A stretch of DNA of 64,000 nucleotides, taken from the NCBI GenBank assembly GCA_013151865.1, contig JAADHN010000121.1, forward strand, positions 1 to 64,000, read 5' to 3'. How positions within the stretch are numbered: position 1 is the first letter of the stretch; each line of letters starts with the position of its first letter. Both the position numbers and the translations under genes were made by a program. This document shows positions 13,244 to 30,616 of the stretch, in pieces. The DNA is from Kiritimatiellota bacterium (GTDB taxonomy: Bacteria > Verrucomicrobiota > Lentisphaeria > Oligosphaerales > JAADHN01). The notes beneath the pieces are model-generated. The model ran no database searches. It saw only the letters and a list, made by a program, of their open reading frames with translations, and was not told the origin of the DNA.

Positions 13244-14122
13244 TTAGAATTCCGGCGGCAATTCTTCGAGCTGGCTGCAGCGAAAAACAGGCCCGTCTTT
13301 GCAGACATACAGGTTGCCGACGTTGCAACGGCCGCACTTGCCAATGCCGCATTTCATACGGTTCTCGAGCGTGGTAAAAACATTCTCTTTGGAAAGGCCG
13401 TGAGTGGCGGTGAGGACGGGCAGCGAGAACTTGATCATAATCGGTGGACCGCAGAGCACACACACGGTGTTCTCCGCGGGAATGTCGGCCTCGCCGAGCA
13501 CGGTGGGAACGAACCCGACCTGACCGGTCCAGTCCGGGGTCTCTCCGCCCGGATCGACGGTGAAGATCGTTTTGACGTCGTCACGGGCGTCCCATTGCTT
13601 GAGTTCGTCCTTGTAAACGAGGTCTGCGACTGTTCGGGCCCCGTAGCAGATGGTGATGTCGCCAAACTCCTCACGCCGGTCGAGGACGTTCCAGATGACG
13701 CTCCGCACCGGGGCCAGCCCGATGCCGCCGCCGACAAAGACCACATTCTTACCCTTCATCTCTTCAACGGGGAAGCAGTTGCCGTAGGGCCCGCGGAAGC
13801 CCACGATGTCGCCTTCATTGAGCTGATGGAATGCCTGAGTCACGCGACCGGCGCACTTGATGCTACATTCGATGTAGCCCTTGCGCGTTGGGGACGAGGC
13901 AACGCAGAAGGTGGCCTCCCCGTAGCCGAAGATCGAGTAGAGCCCGAACTGGCCGGCCTTGAATGTGAAAGCCTCGCCCTGCTCTTCATTCTCGAAGACG
14001 AGCTTAAAGGTCTTCACGTCCGGGGTCTCGGCGGTGACTTTGTCGATCCGCATACGATAGGGAACGTAATCAACGTCCATGAGGGCATCTTCCGCTGCAG
14101 TTGCCGTATTGCAGGTACACAT
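13244..14122 (-). CDS. flxA: FAD/NAD(P)-binding oxidoreductase, FlxA-like
   Basis: Up to 292 residues. The ATG at 14122 lacks a good ribosome site; ATG 14080 has GGAAG eight bases upstream and may be the true start. A ferredoxin-reductase fold is visible: GQFGLYSIFGYGEATFCVA for FAD, VFVGGGIGLAPVRSVIW for NAD(P), and a C-terminal cysteine cluster (KCGIGKCGRCNVG, then CKDGP) as in sulfhydrogenase gamma and FlxA, which hold a [2Fe-2S] centre. It would pass a hydride-derived electron pair from NAD(P)H into the Fe-S subunits FlxB and FlxC encoded just upstream. Confidence 0.85.
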   Translation of the reverse strand: MCTCNTATAAEDALMDVDYVPYRMRIDKVTAETPDVKTFKLVFENEEQGEAFTFKAGQFGLYSIFGYGEATFCVASSPTRKGYIECSIKCAGRVTQAFHQLNEGDIVGFRGPYGNCFPVEEMKGKNVVFVGGGIGLAPVRSVIWNVLDRREEFGDITICYGARTVADLVYKDELKQWDARDDVKTIFTVDPGGETPDWTGQVGFVPTVLGEADIPAENTVCVLCGPPIMIKFSLPVLTATHGLSKENVFTTLENRMKCGIGKCGRCNVGNLYVCKDGPVFRCSQLEELPPEF

Positions 14123-14262
14123 GTCTGGCTATCCGTTCTGTGCTGAGAAGTCCGATTCACTCGAGTTGCTGCATCGTGCAAACCGATCCGGGCTCGCCGC
14201 AGGGGACGTCGGCGCCTCTCCGGCGAGATGTACTGCCGAGCCAAGCCTGTTCCGGGCACGAT

Positions 14263-15306
14263 TCAAGAAGCCGCGGTTGTGATTTCCGCCAGGATATCGA
14301 CGAGATCCTGGCCGGCGCCGCAGACGCGGATACAGCGGCCGCAGCCGACACATGCTTTGCGGCCGAACCGGTCGATAAAATACTTGAACTTGTGCATGAT
14401 TCGGTTGCGACAGCGGCTATGCTGCTCGGGACGCGGATTGTGACCGGACGCATGCTTGGTGAATTGTGCGAAGGAGCAGCAGTCCCAGTTGCGCCGACGC
14501 TGGCCCTTGCGCCAGTCGGACTCGTCGACAATGTCGAAACAGTGACAGGTCGGGCAGAGATAGCTGCAGGCGCCGCACCCCAGGCATTTCAGCGACATGT
14601 CGGTCCAAAAGTCGTCGTCAAAATGCGTATCAAGCCACTCCTTGACCTTTTCCGTATCGAATGGACCGGCACCCACTTGGGCAGGGGGCACCAATTCTTC
14701 GGTGCCGACTGCAGGCGCGGCGCCGTCGAGACGCTTGGCGAGCGCAGCCCCACGTTCGTTCATGACTTCGAGCACTGCCCCGCCGTCCGGCATTGGGCGG
14801 ACGAACAGATCGCTGCCTTCGTTGTCGTCCGCGCGGCCGCCCATGCCGGTGCAGAAGCAGGCCTCGTCGGAGCGTGTACAGGCAACTCCAACAAACGTGG
14901 TTGCCGCCCGCCGTTCAGCATAGAGTTTGTCGCGATAGTCCCAGTTGAAGACAGTGTCGAGCACGTCCAGTGCGTTCAGGTCGCAGGGCCGCGCACCCAG
15001 CACGACGGTCGGGACGGCCTCGTTGTCGGCGGCAGTGAATTGAACGTCCTCGCCCGGCCGGCGCTCGAACTCGACGAGCGCTTCCGTGCGGGGAAACAGC
15101 ACGGCTTTGACCGGGGTGCGTGTATTGATCCACTCGGTGGCCATTTCTGCTGCTGCGCTGATTTCGCGGAACTCGGCGGTTCCTTCGGTCAGCACGGGCG
15201 CCAGGACTCTGACGTTGTCGCCATGCAAGGCGTCTACCAGCTTTTCCTGCCAGCCAGCGCCCACTACAAGTTTCTCCCGGGGATCGGTCATTGCATTCGC
15301 CTTCAT
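14263..15306 (-). CDS. flxB: iron-sulfur subunit, FlxB-like (sulfhydrogenase beta family)
   Basis: 347 residues. The N-terminal 200 residues match the sulfhydrogenase-beta/FlxB fold (VVLGARPCDLNALDVLD, GVACTRSDEACFCTGMGG). The C-terminal half has two [4Fe-4S] motifs: CLGCGACSYLCPTCHC near residue 240 and CVGCGRCIRVCGAG near residue 325, separated by HASGHNP-PEQHSRCR. It relays electrons between FlxA and the Hdr modules. It sits 20 bases after flxC. The cysteine pattern is complete. Confidence 0.85.
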   Translation of the reverse strand: MKANAMTDPREKLVVGAGWQEKLVDALHGDNVRVLAPVLTEGTAEFREISAAAEMATEWINTRTPVKAVLFPRTEALVEFERRPGEDVQFTAADNEAVPTVVLGARPCDLNALDVLDTVFNWDYRDKLYAERRAATTFVGVACTRSDEACFCTGMGGRADDNEGSDLFVRPMPDGGAVLEVMNERGAALAKRLDGAAPAVGTEELVPPAQVGAGPFDTEKVKEWLDTHFDDDFWTDMSLKCLGCGACSYLCPTCHCFDIVDESDWRKGQRRRNWDCCSFAQFTKHASGHNPRPEQHSRCRNRIMHKFKYFIDRFGRKACVGCGRCIRVCGAGQDLVDILAEITTAAS

Positions 15307-15326
15307 CTGGGCAAGCAGTCGAGAAA

Positions 15327-16178
15327 TCAGAGAATGCCGTCGTCGGTATCCAAACCGAGATCAAATGTGCTGAAGGGGCCCTTCTCGTCGGCACTCATAC
15401 CGGAGGTGAACTCGAACTTGTCTTTGACTTGCTGGATCAACTTTTGGTTGAGCAGGCCGAGCGGAATGCCTACCGGGCAGACCCGCTCACACTCGCCGCA
15501 ACCGATGCAGCGTCCGGTCAAGTGGAAGGCGCGCATCACGTTCCACATCACATTCCCACGCAGATGGGAACTGGTTTCAACCCACTGCGGGATGTTTTTT
15601 TCGACCACACACTGCTTGCAGTAGCATAAGGGGCACACTTGACGGCACGCATAACAGCGTATGCAGTCTTTGAGCTTTTCCTTCCAAAAGTTCCACCGCG
15701 CGTCAATGTCCTTGGTTTCGAACGCCTCGACCGCTGCGAATTCGCCCTCTTCCGGTTCGATATCGACCGGGTCCCCCAACACGGTGTCGCAGTCCGGCGG
15801 ATTGTGTACCGTGCAAAAACGACACTTCTGCATTTTCGGATCGCCGACACCTTCGCAAGTGATCCCGATGATGTGCAGATCTTCGCGCGCAATTTGGTTT
15901 TCGCGTATCAGCACATTGATGGCGCGTCGATCGCAGCCTTTGACGACAATGGCACACCTGCCGAGCTTCCGCACTTCCGGCTTGTTTAGGTAGACGGCCA
16001 GGTTTCGGTAGCATTCGCCGTCGAGGGCAAGCTGCGACACCTGCTGCGGAGTACGCGCAAACACGGCGGTCATGTCGCCCCTGCTGCCGGTATGTCCATA
16101 GCCGATGACAACCCCGACGGCTTTCCGTTTGAGCAGGTCTTCGGCAGTCTCGCGCAGCAGTTGGGTCAGATCCTGCAT
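15327..16178 (-). CDS. flxC: iron-sulfur subunit, FlxC-like
   Basis: 283 residues. An N-terminal FrhB-like region (VGVVIGYG near residue 22; GRCAIVVKGCDRRAINVLI; IGITCEGVGDP) is followed by two [4Fe-4S] motifs, CIRCYACRQVCPLCYCKQC near residue 172 and CIGCGECERVCPVGIP near residue 232. In Desulfovibrio FlxABCD this subunit connects the NAD(H) module with HdrABC. The stop is 20 bases before flxB and the start 6 bases after mvhD/flxD, so the four flx genes form a tight block. Confidence 0.83.
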   Translation of the reverse strand: MQDLTQLLRETAEDLLKRKAVGVVIGYGHTGSRGDMTAVFARTPQQVSQLALDGECYRNLAVYLNKPEVRKLGRCAIVVKGCDRRAINVLIRENQIAREDLHIIGITCEGVGDPKMQKCRFCTVHNPPDCDTVLGDPVDIEPEEGEFAAVEAFETKDIDARWNFWKEKLKDCIRCYACRQVCPLCYCKQCVVEKNIPQWVETSSHLRGNVMWNVMRAFHLTGRCIGCGECERVCPVGIPLGLLNQKLIQQVKDKFEFTSGMSADEKGPFSTFDLGLDTDDGIL

Positions 16179-16184
16179 GGGGGA

Positions 16185-16658
16185 TTAATTCCTGTTGTCC
16201 CGTATCCGTTCAAAGTACTCGAAGGGGCCAAGCTCGGTGGCCAGCGCCGTGATGTCGGCAACGACCTGCGACCACTTTCCGCCTTGTGCAGCCGACACCC
16301 AGGACATCTGGAATCGCCGGGGGTCGATGCCCATGAATTCAAGGAGCGAGCGAAAGGTGGGAAGCTTGCGCCGGGCGTGGTAGTTGCCGCTCGTGTAATG
16401 GCAGTCGCCCGGATGACAGCCGCTCACCAGCACCATGTCGGCGCCGCGTTCGAATGCTTTCAAAATGAAGAGCGGGTCGACTCTGCCGGTACAGGGGAGT
16501 TTCACGATTCTGATATTGGGAGGGTAGCCGAGGCGACTCGTCCCCGCCAAATCGGCGCCGGCGTAAGAGCACCAGTTGCACAGGAAGGCCACGATCCTGG
16601 GCTCGAAGGTGGTCTGTTCGTCGTCGTCGGCAGTTGAGGTTGTCTGAATCGCTTCCAT
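16185..16658 (-). CDS. flxD: MvhD/FlxD hydrogenase iron-sulfur subunit family
   Basis: 157 residues. It contains the MvhD signature: FLCNWCSYAGADLAG, VKLPCTGRVDP and VSGCHPGDCHYTSGNYHA. MvhD carries a [2Fe-2S] centre and passes electrons into HdrA. Here the neighbours are FlxC downstream and the NuoG/HdrA C-half fusion upstream (128-base gap), which is the expected interface. Residues 1-20 are acidic and probably disordered. Confidence 0.88.
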   Translation of the reverse strand: MEAIQTTSTADDDEQTTFEPRIVAFLCNWCSYAGADLAGTSRLGYPPNIRIVKLPCTGRVDPLFILKAFERGADMVLVSGCHPGDCHYTSGNYHARRKLPTFRSLLEFMGIDPRRFQMSWVSAAQGGKWSQVVADITALATELGPFEYFERIRDNRN

Positions 16659-16786: not shown

Positions 16787-18604
16787 TCAGGGCACCAGTG
16801 CGTCTATTTCCGCATACAACTCGGCGTCCGTGAAGCCTTCCACCTCAATGCTGTTCGAACGACAGGTCACCGCACAGGCGCCGCACCCCTGACAAAGCCC
16901 CGGGTTGACCTCGGCCACGATCTTGACGAGGTTCCCTTTGCGGTCACGTATTTCTTTCTCACCGATGGCGCCGTAGGCGCAGACCGGCTCACAGTTGAAA
17001 CAGGCATTGCAGGTGTTCTCATCGACACAAGCAACGATGGGTTCGCGCTCGTATTCGTCCCGGACGACCAGTCCCAACGCCTTGGCGGCTGCGCCGCTGG
17101 CCTGGGCGACCGTTTCGGGGATATCCCGAGGGGCTTGGCAAGCGCCCGCGAGGAAGATCCCGGCGGTATTGGTCTCAACCGGACGCAACTTCGGGTGCGC
17201 TTCGTTGAAGAACTCATGCTCGTCGTATCCGATGCGGAGTTTCTGGGCGAGGTCGACGGCCCCGCTGCTCGGCACGACGGCCGCCGCCAGTACGACCAGG
17301 TCCGCGTCGATTTCGACCTGATTGCCGGAGAGTGTGTCGGCGCCCCAGACAACCATCTTCCCATTGCGCGGAAAAATCTTGGCCACGCGCCCGCGGATGT
17401 AAGTGGCCGTCTTTTCTTTCGCGACACGCCGGACGAACTGCTCGTAGTTCTTGCCCGGGGCGCGAACGTCCATGTAGAAGACAAAGGCTTGGCCGTCATG
17501 CACCTTGTGTTCATAGAGCATGGTGTGCTTGGCAGTGTACATGCAGCAGATGTTGGAGCAGTACGGCTTGTGCTTGACCTCTTCGCGGGAGCCCACGCAT
17601 TTGACGAATACGCAGACCATCGGTTTTTCGCCGCCGACGATCTTGCCGTCGTCGTCATACTCGAACGTGGACGGCCGATAAACATTGCCGCCGGTCGGAC
17701 CGCTGGCGCTGACCATGCGTTCAAACTCCAGACTGGTTACCACGTCCGGATACCTGCCGTAACCGTACTCTTCGTAAGCGGCGGGATTGTAGAGCTGGTA
17801 GCCGGTTGTGACCACGATGGCGCCGACCTTCTCTTCCGTGAATTCGTCTTCAGCCTCGTAGTCGATGGCGCCCGCCGGGCAGATCTGCGCACAGGCGCCG
17901 CAACCGCCGGTCCTGAAGTGGATGCAATTCTCGCGGTCGATGACCGGCTTGTTGGGCACAGCCTGCGGGAAAGGCACGTAAATCGATCGCCGCGAGTCGA
18001 AGCCGCAATTGAACTCGTTGGGAATGCGTTCCAGCAGCTTATCCCTGAATTCGGCCGGATCGATGCAACCGGTCGGGCAGACTACGGCACACGCTCCGCA
18101 GCCGATGCAGACGTCGCTGAGTTCCTTGTAAGGCGTGACCACTTCGCGGGTCTGGCCGCGGCCCGAAAAGCAGACGGCGCCGACGCCGATGACCTGGTTG
18201 CAGACGCGCACACAGAGCCCGCACATGATGCATTTTTGATTTCGGTTTTCGGTTTTGAACCGTGGTGTGTCAACCCCCAGTTCCCGGGCCATTTCCTGAA
18301 TCCTCTCGCTCTCGGGGCACCGGGCCAGGAGCAACTCGAGGGTCATCTTGCGCGAACGTTTGATCCGCTCGCTTTCGGTCTGCACAACGAGGCCTTCCTC
18401 CGCCGGGTACGCACAGGAGGCGATCAGCCGTGTCCTCCCTCTGGACGTCGCTTCCACGACGCATATGCGGCAAGCGCCTGCGCTGGGGACCCCGCGGTGG
18501 TGGCAAAGGGTTGGGATTTCCAGGCCGCAAGCTTTGGCCGCGTCCAGCACGGTTGCGCCGTCCGCAACCTCAATCTCCTGGCGGTTGACAGTGAGTGTCG
18601 GCAT
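16787..18604 (-). CDS. NuoG-type N-domain fused to the C-terminal half of HdrA
   Basis: 605 residues. Residues 1-75 are a plant-type [2Fe-2S] domain (CHHRGVPSAGACRICVV) like NuoG and HydA N-termini. Residues about 115-210 hold two [4Fe-4S] motifs (CIMCGLCVRVC, CIGCGACAVVCPTGC). From about residue 220 the sequence is HdrA: PNEFNCGFDSRRSIYVPFPQ, CGACAQICPAGAIDY, VKCVGSRE, YCSNICCMYTAKH, AGIFLAGACQAPRDIPETVA, then a C-terminal double [4Fe-4S] domain (CNACFNCEPVC, CQGCGACAVTC). The N-terminal half of HdrA, with its GxGxxG FAD motif, is encoded separately at 20829-22184. No H-cluster or molybdopterin domain follows the NuoG part, so this is not a hydrogenase or formate dehydrogenase. Confidence 0.87.
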   Translation of the reverse strand: MPTLTVNRQEIEVADGATVLDAAKACGLEIPTLCHHRGVPSAGACRICVVEATSRGRTRLIASCAYPAEEGLVVQTESERIKRSRKMTLELLLARCPESERIQEMARELGVDTPRFKTENRNQKCIMCGLCVRVCNQVIGVGAVCFSGRGQTREVVTPYKELSDVCIGCGACAVVCPTGCIDPAEFRDKLLERIPNEFNCGFDSRRSIYVPFPQAVPNKPVIDRENCIHFRTGGCGACAQICPAGAIDYEAEDEFTEEKVGAIVVTTGYQLYNPAAYEEYGYGRYPDVVTSLEFERMVSASGPTGGNVYRPSTFEYDDDGKIVGGEKPMVCVFVKCVGSREEVKHKPYCSNICCMYTAKHTMLYEHKVHDGQAFVFYMDVRAPGKNYEQFVRRVAKEKTATYIRGRVAKIFPRNGKMVVWGADTLSGNQVEIDADLVVLAAAVVPSSGAVDLAQKLRIGYDEHEFFNEAHPKLRPVETNTAGIFLAGACQAPRDIPETVAQASGAAAKALGLVVRDEYEREPIVACVDENTCNACFNCEPVCAYGAIGEKEIRDRKGNLVKIVAEVNPGLCQGCGACAVTCRSNSIEVEGFTDAELYAEIDALVP

Positions 18605-18629
18605 TGTCGGTATCCCAAAACAGGTTCAT

Positions 18630-20453
18630 CTATTCCACGAGCACGGCATCGAAAGAGCAGGATTCGTAGCACGCGCCGCACTTGATGCACTTGCTCCGGT
18701 CGAGCGTGTGCGGCTGTTTTTTGGCGCCGGTGATGGCGCCTACCGGGCATACTCTGGCGCATTTGGTGCAGCCCTTGCAGGCGTCCGCGCTGATGCTGTA
18801 TTGGATCAGTGCCTTGCAGACGCCGGCTGGGCATTTGCCGTCCGCAATGTGGGCCGTATACTCGTCACGGAAGTATTTCAAGGTTGACAGGACCGGGTTC
18901 GGCGCGGTGCCGCCGAGGGCGCACAGCGATGAGTCTTTCACGTATTCCGCCAATTCGATCAGCATTTCGATATCGTCGTCTCGGCCCTGGCCCGCGCAAA
19001 TGCGCTCAAGAATGCCGTGCATCTGGGCGACACCTTCCCGGCACGGCGTGCATTTGCCGCAGGATTCATCCACGAGGAATTCCAGGAAGTACCGTGCGAC
19101 GTCGACCATGCACGTTCTTTCGTCCATGACGATCAGCCCGCCGGACCCCATGATGGAGCCGACTTCGCCGAGTCTTTCATAGTCGATGGTCAGGTCCAGG
19201 AGCGATGCCGGGATGCAGCCGCCGGAAGGTCCTCCGGTCTGAACCGCTTTGAACTTTCGGCCGTTGGGGATGCCGCCGCCGATGCCGAATACGATTTCGC
19301 GCAGAGTAGTGCCCATCGGCACTTCCACCAGCCCGGTATTGTTTACGTTGCCGACCACGGAGAAAACCTTGGTGCCCTTCGATGTGTCCGTGCCGATCGA
19401 CGAGAACCATTCGGCGCCGCGCCTCATGATTACCGGAACGTTGGCCCAGGTTTCAACATTGTTGATGTTGGTGGGCATGTTCCACACGCCTGATTGCGCG
19501 GGAAATGGCGGTCGCACGCGGGGTTCCGGCATGCGTCCTTCAAGGGAGGAAATCAGCGAGGTTTCCTCACCGCAGACAAAGGCGCCCGCACCCCGGAAAA
19601 CGCTGATGTCGAAATTGAGACCGCAACCGAAGATGTCCTCGCCGAGAAGTCCGTATTCGCGCGCCTGATCAATCGCAATATGGAGTCGTTCCATGGCCAG
19701 CGGGTACTCCTCGCGGATGTAGACGTACCCATGAGATGCGCCGATCGCGTAAGCGCCGATCGCCATGCCTTCGAGTACCGAGAACGGGTCCGACTCGATG
19801 ATGCTGCGGTCCATAAACGCGCCGGGGTCGCCCTCATCGGCGTTGCAGATGATGCACTTGTCATCTCCGGGCGCCTTTCGCGTGAACCCCCATTTCACCC
19901 CGGTAGGGAAGCCCGCGCCGCCGCGGCCGCGCAGGCCGGAGCGAGTCATTTCGTCGATCACCTCTTCCGGAGTCATGGACGCGAGGACTTTGGCCAAGGC
20001 TTGGTAGCCCTCGCGCCCGATGTATTCGTCAATCTTTTCAGGATCGATGAGGCCCCGATTGCGCAGCACGATCAGGCGCTGCTTGTTGAAAAAGTCGATG
20101 TCGCTCAGTTTGGGAATCGGCGGCTCGCCTGCCGACGGTACATACATGAACTTCTCGACCGGGCGCCCCTTGATCAGATGTTCTTCGACGAGTAGCGGCA
20201 CGTCCTCCGGCTTGAGTTTTTGGTAAAAGATCCCGTCAGGCTGGAAGATCATGATGGGGCCCTGCGCGCAGAAGCCCTGGCATCCCGTGGCGACGATCTT
20301 GACCTCATCCTTGAGGCCGCGCTTGTCGATTTCCTCAAGCAGCGCCTCGCGGACCTTGAGGGAGCGGCCGGACACACATCCAGTGCCCGCACAGACAAGC
20401 AACTGCGCGCGTCCGACGTGGTGTGCTGTGGGAGGCGAAGTTTGTTCGGCCAT
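18630..20453 (-). CDS. NADH-binding subunit, NuoF/HndC-like
   Basis: 607 residues. An N-terminal thioredoxin-like [2Fe-2S] domain (CAGTGCVSGR, VATGCQGFCAQGP) is followed by the NuoF core with the FMN/NADH motifs GRGGAGFPTGVKWGF and CNADEGDPGAFMDRS, the N3-type [4Fe-4S] motif ESCGKCTPCREG, and a C-terminal pair of ferredoxin motifs (CKGCTKCARVCPVG, CIKCGACYESC). Length and domain order match HndC/HydB of bifurcating complexes rather than respiratory complex I NuoF, which lacks the end domains. It oxidises NADH or reduces NAD. It abuts the HndB-like gene with a one-base overlap. Confidence 0.9.
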   Translation of the reverse strand: MAEQTSPPTAHHVGRAQLLVCAGTGCVSGRSLKVREALLEEIDKRGLKDEVKIVATGCQGFCAQGPIMIFQPDGIFYQKLKPEDVPLLVEEHLIKGRPVEKFMYVPSAGEPPIPKLSDIDFFNKQRLIVLRNRGLIDPEKIDEYIGREGYQALAKVLASMTPEEVIDEMTRSGLRGRGGAGFPTGVKWGFTRKAPGDDKCIICNADEGDPGAFMDRSIIESDPFSVLEGMAIGAYAIGASHGYVYIREEYPLAMERLHIAIDQAREYGLLGEDIFGCGLNFDISVFRGAGAFVCGEETSLISSLEGRMPEPRVRPPFPAQSGVWNMPTNINNVETWANVPVIMRRGAEWFSSIGTDTSKGTKVFSVVGNVNNTGLVEVPMGTTLREIVFGIGGGIPNGRKFKAVQTGGPSGGCIPASLLDLTIDYERLGEVGSIMGSGGLIVMDERTCMVDVARYFLEFLVDESCGKCTPCREGVAQMHGILERICAGQGRDDDIEMLIELAEYVKDSSLCALGGTAPNPVLSTLKYFRDEYTAHIADGKCPAGVCKALIQYSISADACKGCTKCARVCPVGAITGAKKQPHTLDRSKCIKCGACYESCSFDAVLVE

Positions 20454-20836
20454 CAGGCTACCCTTTCACTGCCCACACCCAAGGCGTAATCCGCAACGAT
20501 GTTGCCGCCCAAGACGTGTTCGGTGAAGATCACACGCGTCTTATTTTCATCAAGATTGACATACTTCACGGGCGCCTCGCCCTGGATCTCGACCGTCATC
20601 ATCGGCTCGCGACTGCAGAGCCCGGCGCAGCCCGACGTCGTCAGAGTGACGTCGTCGACCCCCTGCTCCTCCATCGCGCTCATAAGTGCAGTCATGATCT
20701 TCCTGGCGCCGGCGGCAATGCCGCATGTGCCCATGTGGACGGTCACCCGGGCGCGGGCCGTCCCGTCCCGCAACTTCGCCTGACGTCGCATCCGCATCGC
20801 GATCGCTTCGAGATCTTCCGGTCTGATCTTAGGCAT
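20453..20836 (-). CDS. thioredoxin-like [2Fe-2S] protein, HndB-like
   Basis: 127 residues. Four cysteines sit in the thioredoxin-like ferredoxin pattern: one in MGTCGIAAGA, two in TTSGCAGLCSREP, but the usual second N-terminal cysteine is replaced (only one Cys in the first loop). This spacing matches HndB proteins of NADP-reducing hydrogenases. It overlaps the HdrA/NuoE gene by 8 bases and nuoF by 1 base, so its translation is coupled to both. Role: small electron carrier or structural subunit of the NuoEF module. Confidence 0.8.
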   Translation of the reverse strand: MPKIRPEDLEAIAMRMRRQAKLRDGTARARVTVHMGTCGIAAGARKIMTALMSAMEEQGVDDVTLTTSGCAGLCSREPMMTVEIQGEAPVKYVNLDENKTRVIFTEHVLGGNIVADYALGVGSERVA

Positions 20837-22184
20837 CGACTGTCTCTCCCGCCATGACGTCCGACGGGGCGGTCTGATCCGTCCCCCCCGGCGTGACTGC
20901 TGCCGGAGCCTGTTTCCGGTAACGTTCGAGAATCTTTGGGAGCTTGGCCTGGGTTACGGCGCCATATAAATCGTCGTTGATGGTCATGACCGGCGCCAGC
21001 CCGCAGCAACCGAGGCAGCGCACCGGTTCGAGGGTGAAGTCCCCGTCTTCCGTGGTCTCCCCGGCTTTCACGTCGAGCAACCGTTCCAACGCCTGCAGAA
21101 TGAGCCCCGCGCCCTTCACGTGACAGGCCGTTCCCATGCAGACGCGGACGAGGTTCTTCCCGCGCGGCGTCAAACTGAACGAGTTGTAGAAACGGGCCAG
21201 CCCATAGGTCCGACTCAACGGGACATTGAGCCGTTCGCTTGTATAGCGCAACGCATCTGGCGGCAGGTAGTTGTATTTCTTCTGGATATCCTGAAGCACG
21301 CTGATCAACATGCCGTGCTCGCCGGTTGCCGGTTCGAGAATGACGTCCAGGGTGTTTTTCATCTCCTGGTCCATTGATTCCGCGACACTCACCCTCTCGG
21401 GCACGGAAATCTTGTTGCGAGACATGCAGTTGTTGAAGCAGTCGCCGCACCCGGTGCACTTGTCCACATCAACGCTGCGCGCTTTCTTTCTGACCTTGAC
21501 GTTGAAATTGCCGATGTAGCCGTCGACCGACTCGACTTCCGCATACGTATAAAGCTTGATCTTGTCGCTCTGCATGATGTCGACCATGCGCGGCGTGAGG
21601 ATACACTGCGAGCAATCGAGCGTGGGGAATGTCTCGTCAAGTTGTGCCATGTGTCCGCCGATGGACGGTTTGCGTTCGACCAGCACCACTTCGTAGCCCG
21701 CAGCCGCCACGTCGAGCGCGACCTGGATTCCGGCGATACCCGCGCCGACGACCATGACCCGCTGGGTGACCGGAACGACGATGGGGGCGAGTGGGCGGTT
21801 GCGGCGCAACTTCTCGACCATCAGTCGGACCAAATCCTTTGCCTTGGCCGTGGCCTTCTCCCGATCCGTGTGCACCCAGGAGCAGTGCTCGCGAATGTTG
21901 GCCATTTCAAGCATATACGGGTTCAAGCCAACGGTGGCCGCGGTTTTCCGGAAAGTGGCTTCGTGCATGCGCGGCGAACAGGATGCGACCAACACACCGG
22001 TCAGGCCGTACTCTCGAATCGCATCGGTGATCATCCGTTGCCCCGGCTCCGAACAGGTGTAGCGGTAGTCGCGGGCCACCACAACGCTTGGAAGCGTTCT
22101 TGCGTAGGCCGCAACCGCAGGAGAATCAACCGTTTCCGCGATGTTGCTGCCGCACCAGCAGACAAATACGCCTATTCGCGCCAT
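20829..22184 (-). CDS. N-terminal half of HdrA fused to NuoE
   Basis: 451 residues. Residues 1-285 match the HdrA N-half: GVFVCWCGSNI, VASCSPRMHE, the FAD motif VVGAGIAGIQVAL, GGHMAQLDETFPTLDCSQC, TYAEVESVDGYIGNF and one ferredoxin motif CTGCGDCFNNC. The HdrA similarity then stops. Residues about 295-430 are a NuoE/HndA domain with the [2Fe-2S] pattern CMGTACHVKGA and CLGCCGLAPV. The last 20 residues are low-complexity. The HdrA continuation (PNEFN, QAVP and so on) is found in the gene at 16787-18604. The split falls at a natural linker, so both halves probably assemble into one HdrA unit. Confidence 0.87.
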   Translation of the reverse strand: MARIGVFVCWCGSNIAETVDSPAVAAYARTLPSVVVARDYRYTCSEPGQRMITDAIREYGLTGVLVASCSPRMHEATFRKTAATVGLNPYMLEMANIREHCSWVHTDREKATAKAKDLVRLMVEKLRRNRPLAPIVVPVTQRVMVVGAGIAGIQVALDVAAAGYEVVLVERKPSIGGHMAQLDETFPTLDCSQCILTPRMVDIMQSDKIKLYTYAEVESVDGYIGNFNVKVRKKARSVDVDKCTGCGDCFNNCMSRNKISVPERVSVAESMDQEMKNTLDVILEPATGEHGMLISVLQDIQKKYNYLPPDALRYTSERLNVPLSRTYGLARFYNSFSLTPRGKNLVRVCMGTACHVKGAGLILQALERLLDVKAGETTEDGDFTLEPVRCLGCCGLAPVMTINDDLYGAVTQAKLPKILERYRKQAPAAVTPGGTDQTAPSDVMAGETVDA

Positions 22185-22235: not shown

Positions 22236-23126
22236 TCATAGATAAACACCGGTCTCGATCAGGCCGCGGTCGGCCAGTACCGGTAGGGGATCGACGATTC
22301 CCTTATTCAAACACTGCGCGTCGGCTGCAAGGTCAAAGGCTACTGCCAGCAACTGAGTGAAGTAAAGCACGGGGATGCCCAACTGCCGACCCAACTTGCT
22401 CTCAGAATCGGATTGATACATGTCCAGATTGGCTTGGCACAATGGGCAGGCCACGGCCAAAATGTCTGCGCCGCAGTCTTTGGCCATTTCCACAACGCTG
22501 CCGCTGAGGCGGACCACGGTCTCGCCCCGAGCCAACGTGAGCGCCGCACCGCAGCATTCGGTCTTGAACGGCCAGTCCACCGGTTCGGCGCCCGCAGCCC
22601 GCATCAGGTCATCCATGAGGGTCGGGTATTCCAGGCTGTCAATGCGCAATGGTTCGGGCATGCGCGTCAGCAGGCACCCATAATAGCAGGCGACCTTGAG
22701 TCCCGTAAGCGGCTTCCGTACCCGGCGTTGGATAGCCTGCAGGCCGATCCGTCGGACCAGAACCTCTGCGAGATGCAGGATCGCGACGCCGCCGTGATAG
22801 TCTTCCTCGACAATCTCATTTATCTGCGCGAGCAGGGCCGGGTCATTCTGCATGTCGTGGTTGCCCTGTTTCAGGCGGCTGAAGCAGGCGGCACAGCAGG
22901 TGAGTATTGTTTCCAACCCCTGCTTTTCAGCGGCCGCGCAGGCGATGGCCGAAAGCGCCACGGGCAACAGGTGGCTGGTGGCATGGGCCGGCGTCGCTCC
23001 ACAGCAGACCCAATCGTCCACTTCTTCCAGTTCAACACCCAGTGCCGCCAACACTGCCTCGGCGGAATGCGCGTATTCCGCGCCGCTGCCTTCCAGTGAA
23101 CATCCGGGGTAGTAGCCGAATTTCAT
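22236..23126 (-). CDS. hdrB: heterodisulfide reductase subunit B-like
   Basis: 296 residues with two CCG domains: WVCCGATPAH and TCCAACFSRLK in the first half, CYYGCLLTR, TECCGAALT and ACPLCQANLD in the second. In methanogen HdrB these cysteines hold two non-cubane [4Fe-4S] clusters that reduce a disulfide. The bacterial substrate is unknown; a cytoplasmic disulfide or a downstream redox protein is possible. It overlaps hdrC by four bases and lies 51 bases upstream of the HdrA/NuoE gene. Confidence 0.9.
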   Translation of the reverse strand: MKFGYYPGCSLEGSGAEYAHSAEAVLAALGVELEEVDDWVCCGATPAHATSHLLPVALSAIACAAAEKQGLETILTCCAACFSRLKQGNHDMQNDPALLAQINEIVEEDYHGGVAILHLAEVLVRRIGLQAIQRRVRKPLTGLKVACYYGCLLTRMPEPLRIDSLEYPTLMDDLMRAAGAEPVDWPFKTECCGAALTLARGETVVRLSGSVVEMAKDCGADILAVACPLCQANLDMYQSDSESKLGRQLGIPVLYFTQLLAVAFDLAADAQCLNKGIVDPLPVLADRGLIETGVYL

Positions 23127-23692
23127 GAGCCTTCAATCTCCTCGATGCGCCGGAAAACACGTTTGAGTCGGTCCGTGCGCTTGATCTTGTGCGGAATGAT
23201 GCCCACCTTGCCTTTGAGGAGAAACCAGGGCGCCTTGACGACATTGGTCATTATCCGGCCCGAATTGATGTTGTAGCTTCCCATGAGCGCGACCTCGCTG
23301 AGACGTCCGAATTCACGTACGCTGTCAAGGAAAGCTTGGAAGAAGGTGAAGACGCGTGCCCCGTCGGGCGGCATGGGAACGCCGTCGTGTGTGGCCATCT
23401 GGCGCAATGTGTCCATCATTCGGGCCAAGTCGATGCCGATCGGGCAGCGGCAGGTGCACGCCGAACACCCGGCGCAGCACCAGATCATTTCGTTTTTCAG
23501 CGCGTCTTCTTTCAGGCCCAATTGAACCATGCGGATGACACGATTCGGGGCAATCGCCATATCCTCGAAGACCGGGCAGCCGGCCGAGCATTTGCCGCAC
23601 TGGTAGCAGGCACTGATCTCCTGTTCGCAATGTTTCTCAACGGCGGCCAGGAATTCGCTGTGAAACGCTTTGCCCGCAAGCTGATGTTTCAT
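23123..23692 (-). CDS. hdrC: heterodisulfide reductase subunit C-like
   Basis: 189 residues from ATG 23692. A GTG at 23713 overlaps the stop of the upstream cytochrome gene and would add seven residues. Two [4Fe-4S] motifs are present: CYQCGKCSAGCPV near residue 30 and CCAGCSACTCRCPIGI near residue 75. The C-terminal 100 residues are basic and amphipathic. HdrC links HdrA to HdrB. Unlike membrane HdrE systems, the gene next to it encodes a polytopic protein with a fused 12-heme domain. Confidence 0.88.
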   Translation of the reverse strand: MKHQLAGKAFHSEFLAAVEKHCEQEISACYQCGKCSAGCPVFEDMAIAPNRVIRMVQLGLKEDALKNEMIWCCAGCSACTCRCPIGIDLARMMDTLRQMATHDGVPMPPDGARVFTFFQAFLDSVREFGRLSEVALMGSYNINSGRIMTNVVKAPWFLLKGKVGIIPHKIKRTDRLKRVFRRIEEIEGS

Positions 23693-23712
23693 GGTTCGAC
23701 TCTCGATTCCCA

Positions 23713-26700
23713 CTACTTTCTGCTCGTGCCGTCGAGGATCGTTTGACAGGCTTTGAGGCGTTCCTCGGCCCGATCCAGGATCGTGGTGATCAGCATGTTG
23801 TTGTGGGCGCCGTAACTGCCGTCGGTGACCACGTATGAGATCATGGTTCCCGCGTCGGCAAGCATCCGCTTGATCGCAGCGGCGTCATTTCCCGTTGCGG
23901 CAACCTTGGCGGCTCGCCCCCGGACAGCTTCGAGTGCGGTCTGCAGTTTCGCGACCCGTGCCTTGGTTTCTCCCTGCCATTCGCCGAGCATTTCTCCGTA
24001 AGCTTCGTCGCCGTGACAGGCGGTGCACTCCGCCGCGCTGGCCGTGCGCGTGCGGCGTTCGGTGTGCCCCACCGTGAGAACCGTGTCCCCCGCGTGGCAG
24101 CCGTCGCAGGAGACGCCGGCTTCGTACATGACGTCCGGTGAGGTTTCGAGTTCGGGCAGCACCGTCCCCGCGTAGATACGTGCCTGCAGCGAGTGCTGCT
24201 CACTGCCGTGGCAGTTCGCGCAGTTGCGCGTGGTCAATGACTGTTCTTCCATGGACTGCGTGCCGTGTTTGATCTCGTCGTGGCACTCCAAACAGTCAAA
24301 GTGCCCTTTGGACACGTGGATCAGGTGGAACTTTCGCTGGTCGGTGATTTTCTCCCTACGCTGAAAGTGACAATTTCGGCAGCGCGTCGGAGAAACGTGC
24401 CCGTCCCCTTCGGTGACATTGCTGTGGCAATCCCAACAGCGGACGTCCGTGTTGTCATCGATGAAATCCTTGTGGTTGAACTCCTGCCCGTTGTGGACGA
24501 CCGCCTTGTCGGGCAAGATGTGACAAAGCAGGCAATCGCCGATGGCAGTCGGCTTCTTGCCGCGCCCGTAGAAATGACACGTGATGCAGGTGGTCTCGGT
24601 CACGCCGATGTGCTGGCCTTCGACCGTCTGGCCGTGACAACTGACGCAGTTGAGTTCTTTCCCGCGTGGACGCGCGCTGAGATGCTTTTCGTGACGGAAC
24701 CGGATTTTGCCCCGGAAGACCAGCGTCTCCTTGTCGTGGTCCATGCCGGCATGGCAGGCCGGGCGCATGCACGCCGCGTTGTTGATTCTCGCGTGCGGCA
24801 TACCGGAAACTGAGTGGGTGAGGAACTTTGTGAGTTGCACCATGGCCGCCAGCTTCCCCTTTACAACGGCCTCGACCCCGGGATCGTAGTGACATTCCAC
24901 GCAGGCCACATCTTTGTGTGACGAATGCTGCCATGAGTTGTAAAAGGTGTCCATATTGTGACAGATCATGCAAAACTTTGGATACGCCGTTATCTCAAGT
25001 GAATACGCGGCAACCGCCAGCGCCGCAATCGCCAGAACCGGAATGGCTGCCAGCGCGGCGCCTTGGCGGGTAAAGATGGAAAACAGCGGGAGCAGGTTCA
25101 GCCTGTCCACACCGCGGCGGAGATAGGGCAGTGCGAAGAAAACGCCGAGAACGCCTATGCCGGCGACCAGATAGAAGAGAAGGTCCTGGGTGAAATGCGA
25201 CGTGCTCAGTCTGATCCAGTCATAGGCCATCAGCGAGAGGGACAACGTCAGAAGATAGGCGAAAATGGACCGATGCAGCAGCAACAGTAGCGCCGCGAAT
25301 GCCGCGCCCACCACGAGAAACACCCCCCACGACCCGGACGCCGCCGGACTTACGACACTCAGCCCGCCTGCTACGAGTGCCACCATGGTTGCGCACACAA
25401 AAAGTGCCGTTTCCCAAGACAGCGCCTGGCGTCGCCGGGCTGCGTATCCCGCGCCGACCCACAGCAGGGAGAGCACGGCGAACGGCATCAGTTGTTCGCG
25501 ATACACCGTGTTTCGAGATACCGCGAGCGCGAGCAGGATGGCAATACTCGCCCAGAGCAGCGCCCCGACTCTGAAGTCCGTCTCGTTCCGGCGCGGGAAA
25601 GCGACGTGGATAGCGGCGTAAGCGACTACCACCCACGGCACAAGGGCGGACGTTCCGGTCCAAGTCAGCACTAATGCGGCAACGGCCATGACGATGCTGC
25701 TGGCGTGACCGGCGACCAGCGCGCTTTCGGCAAACAATGGATTCTTCCGCGATGCCGTAGTCAGGCAGAAGAACATGAAGACCGTGGCGGCCCCGGCGGT
25801 CAACCGCGCGACCGGTTCCGACAGCCCTCCAAAAATGACCAGCAGCAAACCCAGCGCCAGCAGCGCATTCCCGGCTCGCGCGTACCAGGCGCGTCCGCCG
25901 ATTGTCCAGCCGGCCAGATAGGCCAGCGCGAGTGTCAGTATGCATGCTCCGGACATCACAGAGGGCATACCCCTGAGCGGGCCCAGGCAGAGGGTCGCCA
26001 ACGTGCCCGCGACGGCGACGATCCCGACAAGCCGGTCGAGCGCATCGGGCTTTTTCGCCCCATTGCGGCAGCCTGCCATGAGAATGGCAGCAAAAGCGAT
26101 GGCGGTCGCGGAGTAGAGTGCCGGGATTGCCCCGGCTCGAGCGCCAAGCACGGAACTGGCGACACTGATGATCAGCCATGCTGTGCCGATAGCGGTGCGC
26201 ACCACCGTTCGGCGGTCTCTCGAATCGGCCCACATATAGCACGCGCCGGCCACGACGGCGCCCACAGTGCAGACAGCCCACCCCACGTCCCTGCCGACGA
26301 ACAGTTGCGTGACTATCACAAAAGCGCCCGCGCAGACGGGACCGAGGGCGGCCAGGACCCATCGGTTCTTGAATGCTTTGGCCATCACCAGCAAACCGAT
26401 GATGACCGGACCGATCGTGACGAGCGCCAACGACGGTTCGAGGTAGAGCAAGGCCACGTACCAGCCGAAAAAGGCCGGGGCCATTGCAGCGCGTGCAAGA
26501 TCATTCTCGAATGCACTCCCGGGCGCCGCCGCGAGGACGTTGCGAGCGTAAGCCAATCCCGTCAACAGGAGGACGGGGATGAGCAGGAGCCAGCCGGTCG
26601 CCCCTCCTCCGCCGAATTGGATCCCAACGCCCGTGAACGCTGCCGCCAGGAACGTACTCGCCATCAGGGTGTACACTGCACGTCCTGCACCCTCTTCATG

Positions 26701-27708
26701 GCGTCGCCACCAGACGATCCACCAGTACATGCACGCCATGACCAATGCTGCGAGAGTAATGCTCGGTGTCGCCGGTGCGATGAAAACTGCGGGGACCACC
26801 GGCAAACTCAGCCCCAATGCGCCAAGGAAAAAGCACTTGGCCGCGGCACGTTCGGCCGTGGTTGCGCGAGCGACGGTGGGAACGGCAACAGTCAGCCACA
26901 TGTAGCCTGTCCAGAGGACGAGAGCCGCCAGCGACAAGCACAGCACCAGCGATGTCCAGTGCGAGAGGGAAAGAAGCAGGGCCACGACTGTCGCCATGCA
27001 TGCGCAAAGATATGCGTGCCGGGACCAACGGTAGCCGCGCCGCGGATGGTTTTCAGTCCCCACCTGCAGGATAGCCACTGCCGCCAATAGTGTCGGCTCC
27101 CAACTGGCTTGGAACGACAGCAGTGCGGTGCCCAGCATGCCCCCCGCTCCCGTCAGAAAACCGGAGAACAAATAAACGTAGCCGATGGGCGCGCCTTTGA
27201 GGGAATGCCCCAGGTAGATCACTGCATAGCCGAGAAACGCGAGTCCCGCGATGCGAGAGCCCAGTTGCGTGCCGAGATCCAGGAGTGGTGTCTGGACCAA
27301 AGCCCATACCGAAAACACAGCCACGGTGATGTTCATGGCCCGAAAAACCGTGAGCGGATATGCTCCGTGATGAGCGGGTAAACGCGTCTCAAGCTGTCGA
27401 CCCACCAGCCAGAGGGCCGCAACCAGTGGAACCGAGAGGGCCGGAAAGAGCGCGGCGGGTGCGCCAAGTGCGTAACACAACACGAAATACGAAACCGCCC
27501 CGAGTAGCATCGCGGCATAGAGGAAGTGGGCTTTTCGGGCCAGAATGGCCGCGGCAAGGAACGGCAGCGTAAACAGAAAAATAACGCCGGAACTCAGGGC
27601 CGGAGCATTGGCTATGAAGTCCTTTGCCGCGACGAGCAGCAACAGAGCGATAAGCAGACTGAGGTGCTGGAGCACCTCAGCGGGCAGTCGTGCAAGCTTC
27701 TCTCTCAC
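23713..27708 (-). CDS. giant polytopic membrane protein fused to a 12-heme cytochrome
   Basis: 1331 residues from GTG 27708, which has a GAGGGAG ribosome site eight bases upstream; the open frame reaches GTG 27783, but the added 25 residues are hydrophilic. Residues about 15-895 are an almost continuous run of more than twenty hydrophobic helices with no recognised transporter or quinone-site motif. A last helix near residue 890 leads to hemes: CMICH, CVECH, a C-x4-CH site (CMRPACH), CVSCH, CITCH, CLLCH, CWDCH, CRNCH, CLECH, CANCH, CDGCH and CTACH, in residues about 913-1230. The tail is alpha-helical. It is the first gene of the Hdr operon. The function is unknown; an electron exit from Hdr to the periplasm, or a membrane ion-coupling unit, would fit. 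Confidence 0.85.
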   Translation of the reverse strand: MREKLARLPAEVLQHLSLLIALLLLVAAKDFIANAPALSSGVIFLFTLPFLAAAILARKAHFLYAAMLLGAVSYFVLCYALGAPAALFPALSVPLVAALWLVGRQLETRLPAHHGAYPLTVFRAMNITVAVFSVWALVQTPLLDLGTQLGSRIAGLAFLGYAVIYLGHSLKGAPIGYVYLFSGFLTGAGGMLGTALLSFQASWEPTLLAAVAILQVGTENHPRRGYRWSRHAYLCACMATVVALLLSLSHWTSLVLCLSLAALVLWTGYMWLTVAVPTVARATTAERAAAKCFFLGALGLSLPVVPAVFIAPATPSITLAALVMACMYWWIVWWRRHEEGAGRAVYTLMASTFLAAAFTGVGIQFGGGGATGWLLLIPVLLLTGLAYARNVLAAAPGSAFENDLARAAMAPAFFGWYVALLYLEPSLALVTIGPVIIGLLVMAKAFKNRWVLAALGPVCAGAFVIVTQLFVGRDVGWAVCTVGAVVAGACYMWADSRDRRTVVRTAIGTAWLIISVASSVLGARAGAIPALYSATAIAFAAILMAGCRNGAKKPDALDRLVGIVAVAGTLATLCLGPLRGMPSVMSGACILTLALAYLAGWTIGGRAWYARAGNALLALGLLLVIFGGLSEPVARLTAGAATVFMFFCLTTASRKNPLFAESALVAGHASSIVMAVAALVLTWTGTSALVPWVVVAYAAIHVAFPRRNETDFRVGALLWASIAILLALAVSRNTVYREQLMPFAVLSLLWVGAGYAARRRQALSWETALFVCATMVALVAGGLSVVSPAASGSWGVFLVVGAAFAALLLLLHRSIFAYLLTLSLSLMAYDWIRLSTSHFTQDLLFYLVAGIGVLGVFFALPYLRRGVDRLNLLPLFSIFTRQGAALAAIPVLAIAALAVAAYSLEITAYPKFCMICHNMDTFYNSWQHSSHKDVACVECHYDPGVEAVVKGKLAAMVQLTKFLTHSVSGMPHARINNAACMRPACHAGMDHDKETLVFRGKIRFRHEKHLSARPRGKELNCVSCHGQTVEGQHIGVTETTCITCHFYGRGKKPTAIGDCLLCHILPDKAVVHNGQEFNHKDFIDDNTDVRCWDCHSNVTEGDGHVSPTRCRNCHFQRREKITDQRKFHLIHVSKGHFDCLECHDEIKHGTQSMEEQSLTTRNCANCHGSEQHSLQARIYAGTVLPELETSPDVMYEAGVSCDGCHAGDTVLTVGHTERRTRTASAAECTACHGDEAYGEMLGEWQGETKARVAKLQTALEAVRGRAAKVAATGNDAAAIKRMLADAGTMISYVVTDGSYGAHNNMLITTILDRAEERLKACQTILDGTSRK

Positions 27709-27849: not shown

Positions 27850-27877
27850 AGCATAACCCATGATTCCGGCGTGTCAA
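27850..27877 (-). promoter_or_regulatory. sigma-70-like promoter of the Hdr-Flx operon
   Basis: On the minus strand a perfect TTGACA (27877-27872) is followed after 16 bases by TATGCT (27855-27850). Predicted transcription start is near 27843, giving a leader of about 135 bases before the GTG at 27708. The leader contains a short stem (TGAGG pairing with CCTCA) that could influence translation. This is the only good promoter seen upstream of the 15-gene unit. Confidence 0.6.
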
Positions 27878-28651: not shown

Positions 28652-29500
28652 CTACTTGGCAGCAGGGGCCGCGGCGGCTTTCCCCTCACACGCTTTCTTG
28701 CCCTCGAGCGCGGCGACATTGGTGGGATCGAGCGCGAGCGCCTGGTCGAATGCTTTGATAGCGTCGGAATTGTTTCCCTGGGCGGCAAGGATTTGCCCGA
28801 GCAAGACGTATGCGGCGGCCCGCGTCGAGTCCTTCTTGATGCTCTTTTTCACGCTTTTGAGCGCTGCGCTGTATTTCCCGGCTTTGTAATACCTTTTCGC
28901 CAGCATGAAACGGGGCCGCGCGGCGGCCGCACTGTCGCCTTGGGGGACGGCGGCTGGAGGGTTGAGCGCCTTGGCCAGTTCAGCATCGTCGATCTCTTTC
29001 AGCAAGTGACGGATGCGGGCCCGGACGACCTCTGAGTAGTTCAGCTTGGTGTAAAATTGATAGGCGACAAGTTTATGATTCTTGCCGGTGATGCCCACTA
29101 CGGGCAGAAGCACCACGCCGAGCTTGCTGTTGAGTGCGTCCCCGACGTCGATCAGCACGGGCATCGCGATCCCGCTTTCTTTCACCGCGGCTTCAGCGTC
29201 GGCCTTGGGGACGCGGTCGGAGACGATGGCAGCCCAATGCACGGACTTACCGGCCGTTTCTTTCTCGATGGCGGCGAGCTGCTTCAATGCGTCCCGGGAG
29301 TGTTCCTGCCCGGGTCTGAAGAAAACGAAGACGTTGACGTCGGCATCCGTGAGCAGGTGGTGTTTGCCGCCGTCCAGCGTCGGCATTTCGATATTCTCAA
29401 TCACGCTGCCGACTTGGGCGTGTGCGAAGCCCCAGGCCATCGGCCACAACGAGACACAGGCAAAAAGCACCGCCGCGGAGACCGTAGGTTGAAGTGGCAT
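28652..29500 (-). CDS. secreted redoxin-fold protein with TPR domain, no active-site cysteines
   Basis: 282 residues with a signal peptide (residues 1-28, ending FAHAQ). Residues about 35-160 have the AhpC/TlpA-like pattern (IEMPTLDGGKHHLL, VFVFFRPGQEHSRDALKQL, VLIDVGDALNSKLGVVLLPVV), but the position of the CxxC or peroxidatic Cys reads RPGQEHS. Residues about 195-275 hold two or three TPR units (AKRYYKAGKYSAALKSVKK, LGQILAAQGNNSDAIKAFDQAL). It lies in the periplasm, 8 bases after the ten-heme gene and last in the cytochrome cluster. A scaffold or chaperone role in cytochrome assembly is inference. Confidence 0.75.
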   Translation of the reverse strand: MPLQPTVSAAVLFACVSLWPMAWGFAHAQVGSVIENIEMPTLDGGKHHLLTDADVNVFVFFRPGQEHSRDALKQLAAIEKETAGKSVHWAAIVSDRVPKADAEAAVKESGIAMPVLIDVGDALNSKLGVVLLPVVGITGKNHKLVAYQFYTKLNYSEVVRARIRHLLKEIDDAELAKALNPPAAVPQGDSAAAARPRFMLAKRYYKAGKYSAALKSVKKSIKKDSTRAAAYVLLGQILAAQGNNSDAIKAFDQALALDPTNVAALEGKKACEGKAAAAPAAK

Positions 29501-29508
29501 GGCTGTCC

Positions 29509-30600
29509 TCAGTTTTTCTTCGCCGCGCCAGGGCCGTTTTTTGCCAGACCGGTGTCGCGGTTGTTATAGGTTTTTTTGCCGTGACAAGTTTTCGCGCAGG
29601 AACCGCCAGTGGCGGTCTTGGTATAGTGGAGCTTGAGTATCCAGCCCGTCGAACCGTAGGGGACGCCGTCGCGGATTTGATGATCCTGCTTGGATGCGTG
29701 TACTTCGTGGCAGGCACGGCAGGTGCGGCCGCGCACCGGTTTGTTCACGTGTAAATAGTGGAGATTGCGGTTGCCGTCGCGGAATCCCGTCAGGGTGGTG
29801 GTTACCGGCTCGGCAACGATGTCGGGATCGTGACATTCGAAGCACAGAGCATACAACTTCGGATCGTAGGCGGAATAGAACGTGCGGGGGTATTTGTGGT
29901 TAAGAAGGCGGAAGTTTTTGTAGCCATGAGGGTTGTGGCAGACAGTGCAATCCTGGGCCGCGACCGGGCCGTGCCACTGCGGGTTCTCGTCCAACAGCTT
30001 CTTCATATTGGTGAGCTTTTTTCCGTCATGGTCCAGGACACCGTCTTTGCCGTGGCAGCTGAGGCAGAGGTTGAACGGTAGCTGGATGAGCAGGTGTTCG
30101 ACGCTGGCGCCATGTGGATTGTGGCAGTTCAGGCAGCTCGCGCCGGTCGTCAGCGCGTCGTGCTTGACGGCCGACTGCGTGGCTATGGTCCTGATTGCCT
30201 CGTGGCAACTCATGCAAAGGCCGGGGACTTTCTCGACAAGCAAGAACTTGCGTTTCGCGTTATGCGGGTTGTGGCAGTTGACGCAGCTCTTCTGGGCGGC
30301 CACGTGGACCGATTTGCGGGCCAACACCTGCCGCATGTCATCGTGACAATCAAAACATAAATCATTGACCGGCTTGGTGATCGGGCCGGGGGCTTTCGGG
30401 TCGGCGCTCTTGTGGCAGAGGTCGCACTCGCCGGACTCGAACGGCGCGTGGGTGACAGGCGGATTCCCGGCGGCGGGCAGCGGGGTGAGGTCGTTCTTGC
30501 GCGTCTTGGGCACGGGGGTGGGGGCGGCCGCGGCGGCCCAGGCGGTCGTTCCGGCCAGGAGACCGAGCAAAAGAGTCATACGGGCGGTCTTCGTATTCAT
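29509..30600 (-). CDS. secreted ten-heme cytochrome c
   Basis: 363 residues from ATG 30600 (AGGAG upstream); the open frame extends further, but only this start gives a signal peptide (residues 8-26). Nine CxxCH and one C-x3-CH: CDLCH, CFDCH, CVNCHNPH, CMSCH, CLNCHNPHG, CLSCH, CTVCHNPHG, CFECH, CRACH and CAKTCHGK. The repeated CxNCHNPH and CxxCH pairs are the doubled CxxCH type. Distal histidines are frequent. It lies directly downstream of the five-heme gene (16-base gap). Confidence 0.88.
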   Translation of the reverse strand: MNTKTARMTLLLGLLAGTTAWAAAAAPTPVPKTRKNDLTPLPAAGNPPVTHAPFESGECDLCHKSADPKAPGPITKPVNDLCFDCHDDMRQVLARKSVHVAAQKSCVNCHNPHNAKRKFLLVEKVPGLCMSCHEAIRTIATQSAVKHDALTTGASCLNCHNPHGASVEHLLIQLPFNLCLSCHGKDGVLDHDGKKLTNMKKLLDENPQWHGPVAAQDCTVCHNPHGYKNFRLLNHKYPRTFYSAYDPKLYALCFECHDPDIVAEPVTTTLTGFRDGNRNLHYLHVNKPVRGRTCRACHEVHASKQDHQIRDGVPYGSTGWILKLHYTKTATGGSCAKTCHGKKTYNNRDTGLAKNGPGAAKKN

Positions 30601-30616
30601 GATGGGGCTCCTTGTT

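Follow-up and report, generated by a model that had tools for sequence, protein, structure and literature searches.

A polytopic membrane domain fused to a 12-heme cytochrome c ahead of hdrC: a candidate membrane arm for a flavin-based Flx-Hdr complex

In electron-exporting anaerobes, the route that electrons take from soluble flavin-based bifurcating complexes to the periplasm and the cell surface has yet to be settled. Here we analyze a gene that bears on this question, located on a 64,000-nucleotide stretch of a Kiritimatiellota bacterium (assembly GCA_013151865.1, contig JAADHN010000121.1, positions 1 to 64,000), hereafter the window. The gene, which we call the giant, encodes a polytopic membrane domain followed by a 12-heme cytochrome c and stands first in an operon for Hdr, Nuo-like and Flx-like proteins. 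It probably represents a novel type of exit through which electrons leave by way of the membrane. We give roughly even odds (about 0.5) to a more specific reading, in which it is the membrane arm of this cytoplasmic flavin-based NADH/Flx-Hdr complex and passes electrons to a periplasmic 12-heme wire, probably via quinol. Feature coordinates are collected in Table 1.

The giant begins at a GTG at 27708 and ends at a TAG at 23715-23713 on the minus strand (1331 residues), matching the open frame reported in a preliminary description of this stretch. Its start is immediately preceded by the purine-rich stretch GGGCGAGAGGGAGAACC; a second in-frame GTG lies upstream at 27783, and the region homologous to the other giants starts at the 27708 GTG. 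The promoter-like TTGACA-16-TATGCT further upstream would be expected 0.2 times by chance, as judged from shuffles. An assembly or reading-frame error might have merged two distinct genes, and the cytochrome half by itself does match standalone proteins. However, a search for a missed stop came up empty, G+C by codon position stays steady over the whole gene, and there is no convincing start codon at the junction of the membrane and cytochrome halves. Two Planctomycetota genomes encode homologues that span the whole uninterrupted fusion (E=0, 45-46% identity), and a third Planctomycetota giant (L108) covers the second half including the junction before ending at a contig edge. Identity of the fusion including the junction is 45-53%, and the membrane domain is kept at 42%. 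Because homologous fusions exist, the gene is not an artefact, and a joining error is scarcely credible.

In a tree of the cytochrome halves, the four giants form one clade with a long stem and 100/100 support, which fits a single origin of the fusion. Their phyla were inferred from named records of the same phylum (Verrucomicrobiota L044, Planctomycetota L012). A membrane-half profile run over 392 Planctomycetota recovered only the three giants and a fragment in one of those genomes, and the giant is carried by three of the nine genomes of the Planctomycetota class concerned. No standalone copy of the membrane half was found, nor a paralogue in the window's own genome, a homologue in the 198 other genomes of its class that were searched, or a relative in a viral contig scan and a plasmid search. 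Likewise, no similar HdrB was found in this class outside the window genome. Because the class otherwise lacks both a similar HdrB and the membrane half, acquisition by transfer is suggested. Frames longer than 1000 residues in genomes G473, G622 and G500 were rejected as further giants, as the cytochrome in G473 and G622 is not preceded by a domain rich in helices and G500 yielded none either; a fragment matching membrane positions 315-389 (G555:C561) was set aside as a short remnant or misassembly. Among open-access journal papers retrieved on Hdr and multiheme fusions, no title or abstract describes such an architecture.

The preliminary description had residues ~15-895 as almost entirely hydrophobic, with more than twenty membrane helices. 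This largely holds, although hydropathy averaged over homologues places 32 hydrophobic segments within residues ~10-861 and a separate 33rd, the cytochrome anchor, at 883-901. Lysine and arginine, counted in alternate loops each with four flanking residues, number 47 on the predicted cytoplasmic side and 9 on the periplasmic side. From this very clean positive-inside pattern the N-terminus is predicted to lie inside and the C-terminus and hemes in the periplasm, where the cytochrome had earlier been placed. Among the three full-length giants, few for such a test, 27.5% of residues 1-880 are invariant; conservation is greatest in the terminal portions (1-160 and 760-880) and lowest around 361-400. 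Tryptophan is strongly over-conserved (17 of 26 invariant, P 5e-5) and leucine slightly so. Near the cytochrome anchor, Y829, D830, W831, T836, F839, T840, Q841 and D842 (YDW...FTQD) are invariant in all four giants and predicted to be periplasmic; lying beside the anchor of heme 1, this motif may shape a quinol site.

Neither Pfam, NCBIfam nor the PDB sequences gave a credible match to the membrane half, and it does not resemble the complex-I antiporter, NrfD or Rnf families. An NrfD origin was rejected (hhalign probability 0.4%, no Pfam match), as was a zinc-finger match to PF23118 (E 0.009, under the cut-off, residues 648-672) that overlaps membrane helices 24-25; matches to PF05754, PF16212 and similar families were ascribed to chance. 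Homology to a known, unrelated family was thus looked for and not found, in agreement with the earlier remark that this part resembles nothing that can be named. Judged from sequence, the membrane half represents a protein family absent from Pfam and NCBIfam and of a kind not described before. Comparison of its profile with itself by hhalign gave off-diagonal matches at an offset of ~153 residues, or about six helices (best E 0.016; residues 379-784, window 25357-26574), which is only a hint of internal repeats.

The heme motifs span residues 913-1232 and comprise 11 CXXCH sites and the C-x4-CH that had already been noted; all twelve are present in the three homologous giants. Pfam detects cytochrome c7/c3 domains in this half, while NapC/NirT (PF03264) scores 22.0 bits against a curated cut-off of 24.1, and NCBIfam NrfH (TIGR03153, E 1.8e-11) scores 44.2 against an equivalog cut-off of 134.2. 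NapC/NirT features are nonetheless present: the anchor helix, a CxxCHxM motif at heme 1 (C913-H917-M919), and K952, which aligns with the NrfH lysine that we take to be its quinol-binding residue. Residues ~1099-1327 match PDB entry 6i5b (E 5e-11), presumably OcwA of Thermincola, and residues ~891-986 match NrfH (2j7a, E 7e-4); both similarities are partial and distant, and neither protein has the membrane domain.

A scan of GTDB genomes with the cytochrome half returned 50 loci, most of them encoding a standalone 12-heme protein with one helix. These relatives occur in Elusimicrobia, Planctomycetes, Ignavibacteria, Acidobacteria, Riflebacteria, Wallbacteria, Deltaproteobacteria and others, and by inspection their adjoining partners are b-type, Rieske-like or NrfD-like membrane proteins. 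The twelve heme sites are in register with this family over ~420 residues, with conserved cysteine and histidine columns. Like the giant, its members (L004-L046; mostly 31-36% identity over residues ~890-1320) have the anchor helix, a periplasmic location and mostly the C-x4-CH at the third site; unlike it, none has a 32-helix domain, and several carry extra hemes after the shared part. The cytochrome half belongs to this broadly distributed NapC/NrfH-like 12-heme family, whose other members stand alone. Since homology starts near the beginning of the standalone proteins, the membrane part has been added at the N-terminus of the cytochrome.

The giant is, as first described, the leading gene of an hdrC-hdrB-hdrA/nuoE operon, which continues into flxDCBA-like genes; flxABCD and hdrABC occur together in it, as in FlxABCD-HdrABC systems. 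In all four known cases, from four genomes and two phyla, hdrC directly follows the giant. The overlap reported between these two genes amounts to one base (TAGTG) if hdrC starts at GTG 23713 and vanishes if it starts at ATG 23692; in relatives it is one base in L106 (TAATG) and four bases in L108 (ATGA). The Planctomycetota contigs are 5-12 kb long, and the operon beyond its first genes is visible in L106 only, where the order giant-hdrC-hdrB-hdrA/nuoE-nuoF-nuoG/hdrA is that of the window minus the separate 2Fe-2S gene, with soluble subunits at 65-74% identity. In both operons HdrA is split between two genes (window 16787-22184, minus strand), its pieces fused to NuoE and to a NuoG-like protein. 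A Marinimicrobia operon (L077) holds an HdrA-piece/NuoE fusion, a 2Fe-2S protein, nuoF, a NuoG-like 2Fe-2S gene and similar accessory genes, and there an HdrC fused to a NarI-type b subunit sits as the membrane arm. Because HdrC-NarI occupies the equivalent place, this analogy supports the giant as filling the place of a membrane arm.

The window operon shares its soluble Flx and Hdr subunits, and a membrane arm associated with HdrC, with the FlxABCD-HdrABC complexes of D. vulgaris and others and with QmoC and HdrC-NarI arms. It stands apart in having HdrA divided between fusions with NuoE and with NuoG, and in that the arm would be a cytochrome c giant, not a b-type subunit or none. The giant is an addition to the Flx-Hdr set and is missing from an Ignavibacteriae Flx-Hdr operon (L078).

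In the mechanism we favor, the NuoEF-like and FlxA subunits would oxidize NAD(P)H, the flavin of the split HdrA would divide the electrons, and HdrC and HdrB would pass those of higher potential to the membrane. The 32-helix domain would dock the complex through its Arg-rich cytoplasmic face and bring quinone (or some different carrier) to heme 1, of NapC type, on the periplasmic side, and the twelve hemes would relay electrons to periplasmic and outer-membrane cytochromes encoded next door. The fusion, its predicted topology, its single origin and the conserved order with hdrC rest on the data above; physical contact with HdrBC, the use of quinone and the direction of flow are the parts of this scheme that we infer. 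Transfer via a quinone bound or guided by the membrane domain is favored because the NrfH-aligned lysine and the CxxCHxM motif are kept and the YDW...FTQD motif lies near heme 1. The membrane-arm reading is further supported by the placement of all four giants before hdrC, the operon order kept in L106, the single giant clade, the HdrC-NarI arm of Marinimicrobia and the predicted periplasmic position of the hemes. The hdrB product matches MFR SdhE, which belongs to a quinol:fumarate reductase, about as closely as it matches HdrB, and the window also encodes CbcL-type and ImcH-type proteins, a barrel-like open reading frame (ORF), NHL repeats and further multiheme cytochromes, all of which are consistent with this reading.

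Several points weigh against it. Gene order is no proof of contact, and the known giants are few: four, the window gene and three from Planctomycetota, one of them truncated. No cofactor ligands stand out in the membrane domain, where invariant residues include 4 of 13 histidines, 3 of 12 aspartates, 1 of 15 glutamates and 0 of 10 lysines, none above the 27.5% average. AlphaFold gave no confident structure for residues 1-905, with a predicted local distance difference test (pLDDT) of 43 from the single sequence and, with four homologues, a pLDDT of 53 and a predicted template modelling (pTM) score of 0.42. A PDB fold search with this low-confidence model found nothing below E 0.37 and low template modelling scores throughout, which is meaningless as fold evidence. 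Finally, HdrB may instead reduce a soluble disulfide, for example that of DsrC, as in the Flx-Hdr of D. vulgaris to judge from titles cited in PMC10553843.

The giant could also be a NapC-type quinol dehydrogenase merely co-expressed with Flx-Hdr-Nuo and drawing on the common quinol pool, its membrane domain only stabilizing the protein or widening quinone access. The cytochrome half may simply oxidize quinol, since the NapC/NrfH features are kept; its relatives stand alone with a single helix beside b-type or NrfD-type partners in many phyla, and the over-conserved membrane residues are Trp and Leu, not redox or charged ones. A dehydrogenase of the pool would have no need, however, of a fused 880-residue domain kept at 42% identity, and the fact that hdrC accompanies the giant in four genomes from two phyla speaks against it, which leaves this explanation possible but on the unlikely side. 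The preliminary description went further in suggesting transmembrane conduction of electrons by the polypeptide itself, or a coupling of their transfer to ion movement, and neither suggestion gained support. Conduction by b-type hemes from HdrC to heme 1, bypassing quinone, would suit invariant His 15, 61, 168 and 668, all predicted near the cytoplasmic face where HdrC would dock. These are nonetheless conserved at the average rate (P=0.5), all sit on the same face, a long way from heme 1, and come with no b-type family match, so that no heme-b ligand pairs are apparent and this route seems quite improbable. Similarly unlikely, if slightly less so, is that the 32-helix domain forms a new class of membrane redox module that receives electrons straight from the cytoplasmic Hdr complex and delivers them, within one polypeptide, to c-type hemes across the membrane, bypassing the quinone pool. 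An ion-translocating module coupled to Hdr-to-cytochrome electron transfer would be in keeping with the great size of this polytopic domain and its place in a redox operon, and in Planctomycetota (L079) the ion pump Rnf adjoins a set of NuoE/NuoF genes related to that of the window. Here again the odds are poor: His, Asp, Glu and Lys are not conserved above average and give no sign of a charge chain, the few invariant Asp and Glu lie in loops or at helix ends, and the domain does not resemble the antiporters of complex I, NrfD or Rnf.

Two described types of multiheme cytochrome invite comparison with the giant. ImcH of Geobacter and relatives is, like the giant, an inner-membrane NapC-like cytochrome with extra helices before its anchor and is tied to electron export. 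It has three helices, one CX3CH and 5-9 CX2CH motifs (PMC6295460), whereas the giant has 33 helices, a C-x4-CH and 11 CXXCH and is not an ImcH. CbcL, MtrH and MtoC likewise join a multiheme cytochrome to a polytopic membrane domain; in CbcL the cytochrome comes first and a six-helix b-type domain follows (PMC6295460). The giant falls outside this group too, with the reversed order, 32 helices and no b-type domain.

The window carries a protein of each of these types. A CbcL-type protein (2958-6134, plus strand) has 23 CXXCH motifs and a six-helix formate-dehydrogenase-gamma-like domain, and an ImcH-type protein (8425-10029, plus strand) has three helices, a CX3CH and then six CXXCH. On the minus strand, 28652-38738 encodes several multiheme cytochromes. 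A barrel-like ORF at 34179-36524, for which Pfam gave no match, and a gene for an NHL-repeat-like protein lie among them, and this cluster resembles an outer-membrane electron conduit. Genes for a CBS-ATPase, a PHP-like protein and other small proteins lie 3' of the Flx genes (10129-13059, minus strand); they also occur in Marinimicrobia L077 and have the look of genes that assist NADH-dependent bifurcating enzymes. Elsewhere in the window genome, a separate cluster (L057, G000:C34, ~9993-10793) holds another HdrB-like stretch, at 46% identity, near glutamate-synthase-like and HdrA-like frames, and no membrane cytochrome was seen there. In Planctomycetota L079 (G409:C44), the genes adjoining the Rnf operon encode a NuoE-like protein, a 2Fe-2S protein and a NuoF-pyridine nucleotide oxidoreductase fusion.

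Table 1. Features of the giant gene and its operon, in window coordinates.
Feature	Position	Strand	Basis
Promoter-like TTGACA-16-TATGCT, 5' of giant gene	27850..27877	minus	10/12 matches; consensus match only
Giant fusion gene, polytopic membrane domain + 12-heme cytochrome c	23713..27708	minus	Stop-free frame; Planctomycetota full-length homologues, E=0
Membrane domain, residues 1-882, 32 predicted helices, short loops, N-terminus inside	25063..27708	minus	Hydropathy, positive-inside; no known family
YDWIRLSTSHFTQD, residues 829-842, between helices 31 and 32, near cytochrome anchor	25183..25224	minus	Conservation; topology
NapC-type anchor helix, residues 883-901, ahead of heme 1	25006..25062	minus	Alignment to standalone relatives and NrfH
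Twelve heme sites (11 CXXCH + 1 CX4CH), residues 910-1235; NapC/NrfH-like start, then cytochrome c7/c3-like	24004..24981	minus	Motif and homologue alignment
Atypical heme site C-x4-CH (CMRPACH), residues 980-986, third of twelve	24751..24771	minus	Kept in all giants and most standalone relatives
hdrC, two 4Fe-4S motifs, translationally coupled to giant or nearly	23123..23713	minus	65% identity to same-place gene in L106
hdrB, CCG domains; HdrB and MFR SdhE matches about equal	22236..23126	minus	Family matches
HdrA N-terminal half fused to NuoE	20829..22184	minus	73% identity in L106
Thioredoxin-like 2Fe-2S protein	20453..20836	minus	Just under Pfam cut-off; 50% identity in L077
NuoF-like NADH/FMN subunit + C-terminal ferredoxin	18630..20453	minus	67% identity in L106
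NuoG-like 2Fe-2S N-terminus fused to HdrA C-terminal half	16787..18604	minus	73.5% identity in L106
Flx-like genes, whole block	13244..16658	minus	Same order in Ignavibacteriae L078, 37-63% identity
MvhD/FlxD	16185-16658	minus	
4Fe-4S protein of Flx block	15327-16178	minus	
FlxB-like	14263-15306	minus	
FlxA-like NAD(P)H/FAD	13244-14122	minus	

The giant defines a membrane protein family in the little-studied Verrucomicrobiota and Planctomycetota. With its periplasmic multiheme wire and large membrane domain, so far always beside hdrC, it offers a concrete and testable candidate for the link between soluble flavin-based bifurcating complexes and the periplasm or cell surface.

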